This document shows positions 2,466 through 26,709 of a DNA stretch of 29,460 bases, piece after piece (the stretch's first letter is position 1; each line of letters begins with the position of its first letter). The stretch is from a virus. The position numbers and the translations under genes are program-made. The notes beneath the pieces were generated by a model, which saw only the letters and a list, made by a program, of their open reading frames with translations, did not search any database and was not told where the DNA came from. The DNA lies in IMG/VR virus record IMGVR_UViG_3300010354_000411, positions 1 through 29,460 of that record; one strand, given 5' to 3'.

Positions 2466-3619
2466 CAGTACACCCACTCAGCGGCGGGCCTAGCGCCGGC
2501 CCCGGGCACGAAGCCTCCGCCTCCGCGCGTGTCGAGATGAATGAACCCCCGAGGACGGCCATCCCCAAGCCCGCCAGTCCACCGGTGACGAATCCACTGG
2601 TAGAAGCTCTCCAAGCTGCTACCCACTGGGTAGATGTCAAAGGCCTCACCGGTTACGTGTTTCGAGTTCAGCGCTCCGCCAACCTCCGCGTTCACGTCGG
2701 TCGGCCGATAGAAGCTCGTCACCCCGAGCGGCCTCCCCCACGCTTCCCGCACCCGCTGAAATTCTGCAGCAGTCCGCAGCAGTCGCGTCCGCACCGAAGC
2801 CGCCGGCCCAGGAACCCGCCGCTTATCCCACTGCAGGATCTCCCCCACGCTGAGGTTGGGCGTCACCAGGCAGTTGAAGTCACTCCAGTCGACCTCTGCC
2901 CGCATCGCCTCGCCCGAGCCGATCACCTTCCGCCAGTGCGGCTCGAACAGGAACCAAGTCCCACCGCCAGAGGCCAACTCCACCCGAGCGTGGCCATCAG
3001 CAGCAACCTCGGAGTATGCAACGACTGCATAATCCCGCCCCTTCGGGCAGTACACCTTCTCCTTCTCCCCGAGCTCGGCTGCTTGCACCGGCTCTTTCTT
3101 CAGCCATGTCGCCTGCACCGCCTCGACGCGATACAGGATCGGCTTGGGATTCGCCTTGACCACGGGCGTGGCCGGCTTTTCCGCCTTCACTTCGTTCTCG
3201 TCGCAGATGCGCAGCAACTTCTCCGCGTAGGCCGGATCCGTGGCGTAGCCCTGCTTGACCAGCTCCTTAGCTGCCGCCTCGAGCGTCGGAGCCCGATCCA
3301 CCCCCTCGTACTTGTCCCAGTCCTTGTACCACCGGGTCACGAGGTAACGGACGCAAGCCCCGAGGTCGGGAAAGTCCAGGAAGTCCGCTTCGATGTGAAC
3401 CCTGGCTCCGTTGACGTACTCGGTGGTCATCCGGGTCGTGCCCGCCCCCTTCAGCCCGAAGTAGTTGTTCCTGCCGCTGGTGTGTTTTCCATAGCCCGAC
3501 TCCAACGCCCACTGCGCCGCAACAAGCTGCGCCCACTTCGCTCCTGCATCTTTGGCAGCCTGCACCACCCCCTGCCAGGTATTGGGGTAGCTCTTTGCCT
3601 TGCTGCCGGCCATGCGCAT
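2465..3619 (-). CDS. Two-domain endolysin: glucosaminidase (GH73-like) plus M15-type peptidase
   Basis: About 384 residues from the ATG at 3619 (another ATG at 3613 is equally possible). The N-terminal third has the GH73 / FlgJ-like glucosaminidase pattern: WAQLVAAQWALESGYGKH with catalytic-type Glu near residue 40, then NYFGLKG and FLDFPDLGACVRYLVTRWYKDW. A linker of about 100 residues follows and may be SH3-like. The C-terminal part has the peptidase M15 pattern: VTSFYRPTDVNAEVGG, SKHVTGEAFDIYP (zinc-binding His and Asp) and FIHLDTR. It would cut both glycan strands and peptide cross-links. It has no signal peptide, so it needs a holin. It lies opposite in strand to the structural genes. 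The frame upstream of 3619 runs into the attP repeat and is probably not translated. Confidence 0.85.
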   Translation of the reverse strand: MRMAGSKAKSYPNTWQGVVQAAKDAGAKWAQLVAAQWALESGYGKHTSGRNNYFGLKGAGTTRMTTEYVNGARVHIEADFLDFPDLGACVRYLVTRWYKDWDKYEGVDRAPTLEAAAKELVKQGYATDPAYAEKLLRICDENEVKAEKPATPVVKANPKPILYRVEAVQATWLKKEPVQAAELGEKEKVYCPKGRDYAVVAYSEVAADGHARVELASGGGTWFLFEPHWRKVIGSGEAMRAEVDWSDFNCLVTPNLSVGEILQWDKRRVPGPAASVRTRLLRTAAEFQRVREAWGRPLGVTSFYRPTDVNAEVGGALNSKHVTGEAFDIYPVGSSLESFYQWIRHRWTGGLGDGRPRGFIHLDTRGGGGFVPGAGARPAAEWVY

Positions 3620-3641
3620 GGTGCCTATAAACCAGGCTAGC

Positions 3642-3659
3642 GGTCCACAAATGGTCCAC
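3642..3659. repeat. Integrase arm-type site candidate, left copy
   Basis: GGTCCACAAATGGTCCAC, 18 bases, itself a tandem of GGTCCAC with a 4-base spacer (11-base period). An identical copy lies at 3885-3902, and the pair flanks the tRNA-like attP core. Paired direct repeats on both arms of attP are typical binding sites for the N-terminal domain of tyrosine integrases. A looser copy (GGTCCACACCGGTCCAC) is at 4148-4164 inside the integrase gene. Confidence 0.6.
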
Positions 3660-3717
3660 ATTCTTCGCTTCAGAAAAACGAGATCAGTTATCGCAAGGGT
3701 TCTTGGGACATATCAGA

Positions 3718-3774
3718 CGGTCTTGAAAACCGGCGAGGTGAAAGCCTCCGTGGGTTCGAATCCCACCCTCTCCG
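3718..3774 (+). other. attP core: 3' half of tRNA-Ser(UGA)
   Basis: The sequence CGGTCTTGAAAACCGG gives the anticodon stem-loop (loop CTTGAAA, anticodon TGA). A Ser-type long variable arm follows (GAGG tgaaag CCTC), then the T arm GTGGGTTCGAATCCCAC and the 3' acceptor strand CTCTCC plus discriminator G. No matching 5' acceptor strand or D arm precedes it, and base 3717 (A) already breaks the anticodon stem, so the match starts at the anticodon stem. This is what a phage attachment site looks like when integration occurs in a tRNA anticodon loop and rebuilds the host gene. Phage genes lie on both sides, so attP is preferred over attL/attR. Confidence 0.82.
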
Positions 3775-3783
3775 TTTCAGTCA

Positions 3784-3803
3784 GGGCCTGAAATCGCAGG
3801 CCC
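3784..3803. other. Hairpin beside attP
   Basis: A perfect 7-bp inverted repeat GGGCCTG / CAGGCCC with a 6-base loop, 10 bases past the tRNA-like core. There is no T-run on either strand, so it is not a standard terminator. It may be a binding site in the attP complex or a transcript insulator between the divergent endolysin and integrase genes. Confidence 0.4.
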
Positions 3804-3884
3804 AGACAAGCTTTTCAAGCACCCGAGAGCGGCCCCACGCTCAAGAGCCTTCGCGTTGATTCGCACCTTCGCGCGTGGGAAAGT

Positions 3885-3902
3885 GGTCCACAAATGGTCC
3901 AC
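3885..3902. repeat. Integrase arm-type site candidate, right copy
   Basis: Second exact copy of the 18-base GGTCCACAAATGGTCCAC, just upstream of the integrase ATG at 3907. Integrase bound here could also repress its own gene. Its presence in front of the ATG argues that the integrase starts at 3907 rather than at the upstream TTG (3856). Confidence 0.6.
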
Positions 3903-3906
3903 GCTC

Positions 3907-5037
3907 ATGCTTGACCTGGCTCCTGTGAACGAAAACCTCCGTTCTCGGGGGCTCCGGATGCTGATCGAGCAACGCCGCCAGGCGCTTGTCGTGCGAGGAA
4001 CCTTCCCCGAGGACGACGGAACCCGCAAGCGCAAACGGATCTCACTGGATCTCCCCGCCGTCCCGACGAGCTTGGTCACGGCCGAGCTTCGTTGCCTTCA
4101 GTTACAGGAAGCCATCACGAAGGGCTCCTATCCCCCGAATCTTCCGTGGTCCACACCGGTCCACACCCCAGCGGAGCGCCCTGACGCACCCTTGAGCTGC
4201 GCCGCGGCGATCCACGCCTTCGAGACCCATTACTGGCAAGTGCGCCCACGCACCCCGGCCTCGGAGCGCACTTGGTCTCGCATTTCCCTGGAGCTCAGAC
4301 GCCTTCCTGCCAAAGCCCCCTGCACACTTCAGCAACTTTTAAGAACCGCCGCTGCGACACCGCCCGGCACCCGCACGCGACTGGAGTGCTGCAAAGTCTT
4401 CAAGCGCCTCGCGAAACACCAGGGAATCCCCGGCAACCTCGAAGAGCTCTCCGCCCTCAAGGGCGACTACGAACCCGCCGACCGCACCATCCCCGAGGAC
4501 GAAGCGATCCTCGCCCTCCTCGACGCTCTCCGCCCGACGAAGTGGGGCTGGTGCTACGCCGCTCTGGCGACCTTCGGATGCCGCCCTGCCGAAGTCCCCT
4601 CGCTCGTGCTCCACGAGGACGGCACAGCCGAGTGCCTCACGATCAAACGCCGCAACCGTGCCCCCGCCAAGCGCACCTGCTTCGCGCTACCGCGCGCATG
4701 GATCGCACGCTTTGACCTTCAAAACATCTCAATCCCTGGCGGGACTCGCTGGACTCAACCTGACGAGTACAACTCCGCCCTCGGGAAGAAGTTCGTCGAC
4801 TCCTGGCGCCACAGTCGTCGTTCGCAGGAGATCCACCCGATCATCGAAACTCACATCCCCGAGTTCGACCTGTACGACCTGCGCCACCGCTGGGCAATCC
4901 GCAGCATCGAGGGCGGAAAACGCCTGACGCTCTGCGCCCGAGCGATGGGCCACAGCGCCACGGTCCACGAGCAGACCTACCACCGCCATATCCAAGCCGC
5001 CGACCTTCGAACAGCCATGGCAACCGAGGCCGACTGA
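3907..5037 (+). CDS. int: Tyrosine recombinase (integrase)
   Basis: 376 residues from the ATG. The N-terminal half is a core-binding type domain (to about residue 150, HYWQVRPRTPASERTW). The catalytic half has the box I Arg226 in ATFGCRPAEV, box II FDLYDLRHRWAIR with Arg326, the conserved GH at His349 and the nucleophile Tyr358 in EQTYHRH. It would cut and rejoin attP with the host tRNA-Ser gene. The usual H-x-x-R of box II reads Y-x-x-R here (Tyr323). Some picocyanobacterial integrases, as I recall, also carry this form. It lies next to attP and is preceded by an arm-type repeat. It ends two bases before the convergent excisionase-like gene. Confidence 0.92.
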   Translation: MLDLAPVNENLRSRGLRMLIEQRRQALVVRGTFPEDDGTRKRKRISLDLPAVPTSLVTAELRCLQLQEAITKGSYPPNLPWSTPVHTPAERPDAPLSCAAAIHAFETHYWQVRPRTPASERTWSRISLELRRLPAKAPCTLQQLLRTAAATPPGTRTRLECCKVFKRLAKHQGIPGNLEELSALKGDYEPADRTIPEDEAILALLDALRPTKWGWCYAALATFGCRPAEVPSLVLHEDGTAECLTIKRRNRAPAKRTCFALPRAWIARFDLQNISIPGGTRWTQPDEYNSALGKKFVDSWRHSRRSQEIHPIIETHIPEFDLYDLRHRWAIRSIEGGKRLTLCARAMGHSATVHEQTYHRHIQAADLRTAMATEAD

Positions 5038-17364: not shown

Positions 17365-18234
17365 ATGTCCCAATCCGAAATACACGATTATTTGACCCAG
17401 GTTGGTCGGCACCCCGTCCTCTCCAAGGAGGCGCAACTACGCCACTGCCGCCGCATCCACGCCTGGCTCCACCACGAGGACGGCCGCGACGCCGCACCCC
17501 TCAGCATCCGCCGCGCCGGCAAACGCTCCATGGAGGTGATGACGGTCACGAACCTCCGCCTCGTCATCTCCATTGCCAAGCGCTATCAGAACCGCGGCCT
17601 CGATATGGCCGACCTCATCCAGGAAGGCAACCTCGGCCTGATCCGTGGCCTCGAGCTCTTCGACCCCACCCGTGGCTACGCCGTAAGCACGTATGCCTAC
17701 TGGTGGATCCGCCAAGCCATCACCCGCGCCATCCACACCCACGCCCGAACGATCCGCCTCCCCATCAATACTCACGAGCTGATCACCCGGGTGCAGCGTT
17801 TCAGCTACGAATTCACCTCACACGCCGGCCGCCCTCCTACGCACCAAGAAGTCGCCGAGGCCGTCGACGTCACCCCCGAGCGCATCGCTCAACTCCTACA
17901 AACCCACACCACGACGGTCTGCTGCTCCCTCGACGCCGTCTGCGCCGACAGCACCAGCCCCCTGATCGACATCCTTGCCAACCCGGAGGGCACCAACGGC
18001 GCCGAGCCCGACGAGTTCATCCTCGCCACCGCCGCCCGCGAAGATGTCACCGCCGCATTGGCCCAGCTGAACTCCACAGAAGAAGCCATCGTCCGAGGCC
18101 GGTACTTCGAAGGCCGCACCCTGCGCGAGATCTCCGAGGAGCTTGGCTTCACCCGCTCCCGAGCCGGCCAAGTTCAGCAGACCGCCCTACGCAAACTCCG
18201 CACGCAGCTCGCCCGCCAAGGCCATGACGACTGA
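17365..18234 (+). CDS. Phage-encoded sigma factor, cyanobacterial group 2/3 style
   Basis: 289 residues with the sigma-70 regions 2, 3 and 4. Region 2 is TNLRLVISIAKRYQNRGLDM, ADLIQEGNLGLIRGLELFDP and TRGYAVSTYAYWWIRQAITR, including the -10 recognition and melting stretch. Then RTIRLPINTHELITR, region 3 (RPPTHQEVAEAVDVTPERIA) and region 4 with the HTH EEAIVRGRYFEGRTLREISE and FTRSRAGQVQQTALRKLR. There is no long region 1.1. Wording such as 'YWWIRQAITRAI...IRLP' is closest to cyanobacterial sigma factors. It would direct host RNA polymerase to a phage or host promoter set, a likely switch between phases. Confidence 0.93.
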   Translation: MSQSEIHDYLTQVGRHPVLSKEAQLRHCRRIHAWLHHEDGRDAAPLSIRRAGKRSMEVMTVTNLRLVISIAKRYQNRGLDMADLIQEGNLGLIRGLELFDPTRGYAVSTYAYWWIRQAITRAIHTHARTIRLPINTHELITRVQRFSYEFTSHAGRPPTHQEVAEAVDVTPERIAQLLQTHTTTVCCSLDAVCADSTSPLIDILANPEGTNGAEPDEFILATAAREDVTAALAQLNSTEEAIVRGRYFEGRTLREISEELGFTRSRAGQVQQTALRKLRTQLARQGHDD

Positions 18235-25293: not shown

Positions 25294-26709
25294 GTGACTT
25301 TCACCACCAACCGCGTCACCACCGCCTACGCCGCCGACGGCAACGGCCCGCTGGTCTACGGCCGCTACCGCGACAAGGGCTACGCCGTGAACCCCCTCAT
25401 CGGCCGCGTCGGCACCATGGTCCCCGAGAACGTCACCGCCCGTGACGCCTTCGAGATCGCCGGCCTCAACTGGACCGCCGACAAGCGCCCCGCCTTCTTC
25501 ATGGGACCGGACGGCCCGCTGCAGTCACCGGAGCACTGCTCCATCGTCCGCAGCGACACCGACGCCCTGCTCGGCATCCACGGTGCCGGCTACACCCCGG
25601 TGCAGAACGACGCCCTGATCAACCTCCTGGACTACCTCCACGAGGACGTCACCATCGAGAACGTCCTCTCGATCCGCGACGGCCGCAAAGTGTTCGCCAC
25701 CGCCTCGATCGACACCGAGGACGAGGTCGTCCCGGGCGACAAGGTGCGTCGCTACCTCCACCTGTTCAACTCCCATGACGGGAGCTCCGGCTTCGGTGTG
25801 TTCTTCAGCGACGTCCGCCTGCGCTGCGCCAACCAGCTCGCCTATCTCACCGGCAAAGCGGTGGGCAAAGCCGTCGCCAAGGGCGCCGGGCTCCGCGCCA
25901 AACACACCGCATCCGTGACGCAGTTCGCCGAGCGCCTCCCGCTGCTGATCGACCTGGAGCGCCGGAGCTTCCGCCAATCGATCAACGAGCTGCGCGACCT
26001 CACCAACGTGCAACTCACCACCGAGATCGCCCGTCGCGTCCTCGAGACCACCTACGCCGACAAGCTCGCCACCCCCTACAAGGACAAGTCCGGCGCCACC
26101 CGTCCCCGCACCCTCGGTGACATCCCCGAGGTCGCCACGATTCGCAGCCACTACGCCGGCGAAACCGGCCTAGGGATCCGCGACATCCCCGGCGTGGCCG
26201 GCACCGTCTACGGCTTGTTCAACGCCATCACCCAGGCCGAAACACACGACGTTGGCCGAGCCAAAGACGAAACCGAGCGCGCCCGCATCCGCCTGGAAAG
26301 CCTCTGGGTGGCACAAGCGCTAAGCGCATCGATCTGGCGCGGCAAGCTTGTCTTGCACTTGTGTGATTTCGGGGGCTTCCGCCTTCGTTTCTCGCACATT
26401 CACAACTCTTCGTTTCTAATGTCCGACAGCATCATTGTTAGCAAGAACCCCAGCCTTGTTGCTTGGCTTAATGACAAGGGAGTGAAAGCCCCTGTTCTGG
26501 GTTACGCCAATCCAAGCGATGTGGCTCACAAACACGTCTACGGCATCGTCCCCTACTGGATGGGTGCCTTCGCCGAGTGCGTGTCTGAAGTCACCATGCC
26601 CGGCCTTGACCGACTCGACCGTGACCGCTTCAACCGGGGCGAGCTCACCGTTCAGGAGATGGACGCTGCCGGTGCGGAGATCATCTCCTACCGAGTACGG
26701 CGCGTGTGA
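25294..26709 (+). CDS. DUF932-type protein fused in frame to a Csx16-like domain (probable one-base shift)
   Basis: 471 residues as an open frame from GTG. Residues 1 to about 338 are a DUF932 protein (phage/plasmid-like TIGR03299 type): NPLIGRVGTMVPENVTARDA, then LLGIHGAGYTPVQNDALINL, DGSSGFGVFFSDVRLRCANQ. Up to SLW at residues 336-338 the sequence fits the family; after it the frame (VAQALSASIWRGKLVLHLCD) does not. Reading one base back at TGGG (26305-26308) gives GGTSAKRIDLARQACLALV and a stop at 26364-26366, like a normal DUF932 end. So either a G is lost (mutation or sequencing error) or a -1 shift makes the shorter form. The rest, from 26419, is a different protein. Confidence 0.8.
   Translation: MTFTTNRVTTAYAADGNGPLVYGRYRDKGYAVNPLIGRVGTMVPENVTARDAFEIAGLNWTADKRPAFFMGPDGPLQSPEHCSIVRSDTDALLGIHGAGYTPVQNDALINLLDYLHEDVTIENVLSIRDGRKVFATASIDTEDEVVPGDKVRRYLHLFNSHDGSSGFGVFFSDVRLRCANQLAYLTGKAVGKAVAKGAGLRAKHTASVTQFAERLPLLIDLERRSFRQSINELRDLTNVQLTTEIARRVLETTYADKLATPYKDKSGATRPRTLGDIPEVATIRSHYAGETGLGIRDIPGVAGTVYGLFNAITQAETHDVGRAKDETERARIRLESLWVAQALSASIWRGKLVLHLCDFGGFRLRFSHIHNSSFLMSDSIIVSKNPSLVAWLNDKGVKAPVLGYANPSDVAHKHVYGIVPYWMGAFAECVSEVTMPGLDRLDRDRFNRGELTVQEMDAAGAEIISYRVRRV
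26419..26709 (+). CDS. Csx16-like (CRISPR-associated, proposed ring nuclease) protein or domain
   Basis: 96 residues from the ATG at 26419, which lies in the same frame as the upstream fusion. The order IIVSKNPSLVAWLNDKG, VYGIVPYWMGAFAE, RGELTVQEMDAAGAEIISYRV parallels the Csx16 (VVA1548) pattern 'FVSRHPGA..WL...G....V.G.LP..LA......RG.EL...E....GA.L..Y.V'. Csx16 is found with type III CRISPR systems and, as I recall, is linked to degradation of cyclic oligoadenylate signals. In a phage it could act as an anti-defence enzyme. There is no clear ribosome site before the ATG. Resemblance is by eye; the middle (LDRLDRDRFN) differs from the family. Confidence 0.6.
   Translation: MSDSIIVSKNPSLVAWLNDKGVKAPVLGYANPSDVAHKHVYGIVPYWMGAFAECVSEVTMPGLDRLDRDRFNRGELTVQEMDAAGAEIISYRVRRV

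Follow-up and report, generated by a model that had tools for sequence, protein, structure and literature searches.

Csx16, a protein associated with type III CRISPR loci, is a confirmed ring nuclease specific for cA4, and the question raised by the viral contig analyzed here (IMG/VR record IMGVR_UViG_3300010354_000411; 29,460 nucleotides, hereafter 'the window') is whether a small Csx16-like protein that it encodes is still an enzyme of this kind. The csx16-like gene (26419..26709, + strand, stop codon included) encodes 96 amino acids and is a stand-alone gene in its relatives. The protein matches the Pfam family PF09652 (Cas_VVA1548) over residues 6–93 at 25.7 bits (E = 1.4e-5), barely above the curated cut-off of 25 bits, and the PADLOC model for Csx16 at E = 4.7e-6. 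It was not matched by NCBIfam TIGR02620 even at E = 10, a model that gives a canonical Csx16 113 bits and another phage Csx16 44.8 bits against a cut-off of 46.35. PHROGs contained no match for the protein, a sequence search of the PDB returned repeat-protein noise only, and a match in a crAss-like phage (E = 0.2) was dismissed as chance. Because a single threshold-level score is thin, further tests of homology were run. PF09652 is the sole family matched by all 16 of the aligned relatives, with some of them scoring slightly under the cut-off, and hhalign comparison of the clade formed by these relatives with 88 Csx16s gave a probability of 97.8 (E = 8.9e-13) over 90 columns. The clade profile retrieves other phage Csx16s, which bear the Arg-His pair of the family, at E-values from 1e-22 to 1e-11 (E = 1e-22 for the protein of contig L124), and a tblastn search of 72,556 plasmids with the window protein alone returned three records, all annotated as Csx16. 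The preliminary description of this locus had placed the protein in the Csx16 family; this placement is borne out by PF09652 and hhalign, though of the two profiles that the description named as a check, TIGR02620 does not match. The window protein is a true but divergent Csx16, and its homology is secure.

The csx16-like gene follows a conserved upstream neighbor, a DUF932 (TIGR03299-like) gene at 25294..26366 (+ strand; expected stop codon at 26364-26366), the frame of which is broken near its 3' end. Relative to the sister contig L001, the window has one G fewer in the G run at 26306-26308, and the two are otherwise identical over 721 aligned bases. Because of this missing base, DUF932 and the csx16-like open reading frame form one 471-aa frame in the window, whereas they are separate genes in L001. 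A genuine DUF932-Csx16 fusion was rejected, since the in-frame join reflects this one-base difference. The frameshift falls in DUF932, outside the csx16-like gene, and in the L001 reading frame the end of DUF932 and the csx16-like start codon are separated by 52 bases (26367..26418). DUF932 adjoins the csx16-like gene in most contigs, i.e., the gene occupies a fixed slot after DUF932. A full DUF932 gene of the window's type was found in 20 contigs, with the csx16-like gene in 18 of them and an unrelated small gene in its slot in the other two (L141 and L142); several of these contigs are near-duplicates, so that 18/20 and 2/20 overstate independence. The gene in the slot of L141 and L142 lies about 1.1 kb past the DUF932 start, and the L141 version begins MQIPETPEALFE. 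It had no Pfam match, and is a candidate functional substitute for the csx16-like gene. In contig L010, the csx16-like gene is present in a different setting. In line with the preliminary description, no CRISPR components were found in the window: a repeat search gave no CRISPR-like array, and the only cas match among the window proteins scanned with PADLOC was a weak one, to DEDDh, within the DNA polymerase. Association with a type III CRISPR locus was therefore not seen, either as a cas neighbor among the genes scanned or as an array in the window.

The csx16-like clade comprises 26 IMG/VR contigs or loci. In most pairs of clade members dN/dS is 0.03–0.4, with a few pairs up to 0.7, and the csx16-like gene is under purifying selection. 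The gene is absent from the cultured phage S-CBS2, and the patterns used found no clade copies in hosts among 84,980 genomes; the clade shows a conserved locus with occasional replacement. The nearest cultured relatives of the window virus are mostly phages of picocyanobacteria, i.e., S-CBS2, S-H1 and S-RIP1 by DNA, with the primase pointing to S-LBS1 and the sigma factor to S-CBS3. This sigma-70-type factor, encoded at 17365-18234 of the window, is, among phage proteins, closest to a group 2 sigma factor from S-CBS3, a phage of Synechococcus (38% identical). Related contigs reach 70–72 kb, and S-CBS2 is 72 kb. We place the carriers of the clade among the picocyanobacterial siphoviruses, as distant kin of S-CBS2, with the window virus coming from freshwater; a cyanobacterial host is the probable one, given the cultured phage relatives. 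According to the literature, picocyanobacteria, the hosts of such phages, are mostly without CRISPR, type III included.

The canonical Csx16 motif after strand 1 is S/T-R-H-x-G-A. In the clade it reads (K/R/T/F)-N-x-S/A, with Ser or Ala at the position of the invariant Gly, and the site of the canonical Arg-His pair, at the end of strand 1 and before helix 1, is occupied in the window by K9-N10 (26443..26448, + strand). The N10 column holds His in 95/95 other Csx16s and Asn in 16/16 clade members, none of which has His; the column before it holds Arg in 94 of the 95 others, and the H29 column holds His in 94/95 others and Tyr in 13/16 of the clade, the Arg-His counts of the canonical set being inflated because that set was fetched by patterns containing R-H. 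To correct for this bias, we searched 398 genomes with a profile, independently of the R-H patterns, and 12/12 genuine Csx16s kept the Arg-His pair; matches from R-H-free patterns and from tblastn were used as well. Further viral Csx16s keep the His, one of them with Lys in place of Arg. Thus His was found in every other Csx16 examined, whether chromosomal, plasmid, archaeal-virus or phage, and Arg in nearly all. The preliminary description had read SKNPSLVAWL as following the family and suggested a possible ring nuclease; that suggestion finds no support here, since the stretch departs from the family's SRHPGAxxW and the invariant His, the near-invariant Arg and H29 are lost. In the literature searched, we found no paper mutating active-site residues of Csx16.

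The clade has acquired a conserved set of its own, comprising H37, W47, E57, R65 and R70. In all, 26 positions are invariant across 16 sequences of the clade. H37 (26527..26529, + strand) is invariant in the clade and is Gly in most canonical Csx16s, and E57 (26587..26589, + strand) is likewise invariant in the clade and is H or N in most canonical Csx16s. By column counts, the core motif VYGIVPYWMG (residues 40–49; 26536..26565, + strand) contains G42 and P45, which are common to all Csx16s examined, and the clade-specific W47, where canonical proteins have N or H. Column counts and secondary structure mark residues 65–74 (26611..26640, + strand) as a clade-specific stretch carrying R65, R68 and R70. 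A four-residue insertion, FNRG, the placement of which is approximate, lengthens a helix in the loop that holds the canonical R-G pair. The window protein resembles Csx16 in full-length sequence profile, predicted fold and length, and keeps the G-x-x-P core as well as the Arg of the R-G pair (R68), but it differs in having no cas neighbors, no TIGR02620 match and a replaced R-H-x-G-A motif; the clade as a whole differs in having mostly Tyr for H29, Trp for N/H47 and the four-residue insertion.

Closer in setting are the Csx16s of phages and archaeal viruses (L120-L125, L147-L160, Drs3 and PhiF3), which are likewise small, viral and outside CRISPR loci. They are the nearest to the window protein by profile score, and the tree places them outside the clade of chromosomal Csx16s, but all of them keep the His, unlike the long-stemmed cyanophage clade. 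In that tree, built from 98 columns and with most deeper forks lacking resolution, the cyanophage clade is monophyletic (support 100/97) on a long stem of 1.08 changes per column, and lies outside the chromosomal Csx16s (support 98/93). A published survey reported Csx16 in two of 28,114 phage genomes. The two cultured Csx16 carriers found in the present work are archaeal viruses, and the new viral carriers are the 26 cyanophage contigs and about 15–20 other viral contigs. Among the latter, contigs L147-L159 (15 viral contigs in one scan) encode compact, His-keeping Csx16s. The viral contigs with a His-keeping Csx16 far outnumber the two phage genomes of the published survey. Activity of Csx16 on cA4 and its rare occurrence in phages were already known; the new element is a cyanophage clade without the Arg-His pair, of which we found no mention in the literature searched. 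Csx16 was also observed on plasmids. Plasmid pMESIL02 of Allomeiothermus silvanus (L035) encodes a 671-aa protein (2998-5013) with an N-terminal Csx16 domain that has Q-H for R-H; its residues 154–210 form a weak second Csx16-like stretch, apparently without the His, and the plasmid carries a second Csx16 match. Orphan Csx16s are encoded by plasmid pSC2 of Paenibacillus polymyxa (L034, 2728-3276) and by an archaeal plasmid (L030, 2995-3291), in each case with no annotated cas neighbor in the stretch viewed.

The AlphaFold model of the window protein (pLDDT 91.9, pTM 0.80) was compared with that of a control, the phage Csx16 of L124, which has the Arg-His pair (pLDDT 95.7). Both models show a five-stranded Rossmann-like (CARF-like) fold with the same order of strands and helices, strand 2 of the window protein being just two residues long, and both N10 of the window protein and H9 of the control lie between strand 1 and helix 1. 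The best solved-structure matches of the window model are proteins of cyclic oligoadenylate biology: the Cad1 CARF domain (9c68; Z 4.2, rmsd 3.7, 87 residues aligned), AcrIII-1 (6scf; Z 4.1, rmsd 3.4, 75 aligned), Cam1 (8t66; Z 4.0, rmsd 2.9, 81 aligned) and Sis0455 (7z55; Z 3.7, rmsd 3.3, 88 aligned). All of these Z-scores are below 5, in a range where unrelated Rossmann folds appear too. The best matches of the control were 2j6b (Z 5.2, rmsd 2.4, 72 aligned), which the literature also gives as the structure that DALI matched to Csx16, and Csx1-Crn2 with cA4 (8y7g; Z 4.5, rmsd 2.4, 71 aligned). Foldseek against BFVD gave no significant match, and fold matches of the modeled proteins at Z of about 4–5 are suggestive only. 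The viral AcrIII-1/Crn2 family (DUF1874) provides the best or a near-best match of both models, with no sequence match. Judged by the superposition ranges, if these are ungapped at the start, H9 of the control lies on H495 of Crn2 and N10 of the window protein on residue 47 of AcrIII-1, so that the catalytic His position of this family, between strand 1 and helix 1, appears to coincide with the site at which the window protein has Asn. Both histidines are catalytic: Crn2 H495A cannot cleave cA4, and AcrIII-1 H47A has lost activity but still binds cA4 (KD about 25 nM).

The reading that we prefer, with a rough probability of 0.45, is that this derived Csx16-fold protein binds a host nucleotide signal, and that it is not a standard cA4 ring nuclease but acts by sequestration or by His-free chemistry. 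The Csx16 pocket would bind a host alarm nucleotide, i.e., cyclic oligoadenylate or another cyclic nucleotide, and signaling defense would be blunted either by sequestration of that signal or by chemistry that does without the lost histidine; ligand or chemistry would be altered, and the target perhaps lies beyond type III CRISPR. Selection has kept the fold and a new polar set and has removed the signature, which favors a protein that binds without cleaving, or one with a changed ligand, over a standard cA4 ring nuclease. Nucleotide sponges are well known from viruses. Precedents for the binding of cyclic nucleotides with at most inefficient cleavage are Csx15, which belongs to the CARF superfamily and mostly sequesters cA4, and sponges of the Acb2/Tad type. 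Csx15 is not known from phages, and the Acb2/Tad-type sponges differ in fold from the window protein, a putative binder. Against type III CRISPR, which produces its signal in large amounts, a pure sponge may be of little effect. The conserved polar residues of the clade could also be a sign of a new catalytic set. An anti-defense role is plausible, with the viral location of the gene and its replacement in the slot as indirect indications. Because the hosts are mostly without CRISPR, type III CRISPR is just one of several possible targets; more tentatively, and as a somewhat unlikely proposal, picocyanobacterial phages may have turned the Csx16 fold against a non-CRISPR nucleotide defense such as CBASS, either as a sponge for the signal or as an enzyme with a new specificity.

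It is unlikely that the protein has remained an active cA4 ring nuclease and anti-CRISPR by way of other residues such as H37, H39, E57 or the R65/R68/R70 cluster. Csx16 is confirmed as such an enzyme and the clade keeps the fold with a strongly conserved polar set, but it has lost the R-H-x-G-A motif, with its universal His, as well as the near-universal H29, and CRISPR is scarce in the likely hosts. This scarcity would also fit repurposing of the Csx16 fold for a non-defense job of the phage, e.g., regulation or nucleotide metabolism, as would the near-fixation of the gene beside DUF932 in most of the clade's genomes, the dCTP deaminase encoded close by, and the thymidylate synthase and dNMP kinase encoded elsewhere in the window; genes for such jobs abound in this region. 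We regard repurposing, too, as unlikely: the gene behaves as an accessory one, being absent from S-CBS2, replaced in two DUF932 contigs and differently placed in L010, and known Csx16s act in nucleotide-signal defense. A decaying gene or chance open reading frame, to which the in-frame join with a frameshifted DUF932 in the window assembly and the borderline Pfam score might point, is refuted by conservation, i.e., by the occurrence in 26 contigs, dN/dS values well under 1 for the majority of pairs, the 26 invariant positions, and a frameshift that lies in DUF932 and spares the csx16-like gene.

For the Csx16 family, a clade that keeps the fold and replaces the signature permits a direct test of whether a ring nuclease can become a sponge or switch its ligand. 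For picocyanobacteria, the clade points to a nucleotide-signal defense that would be worth seeking.
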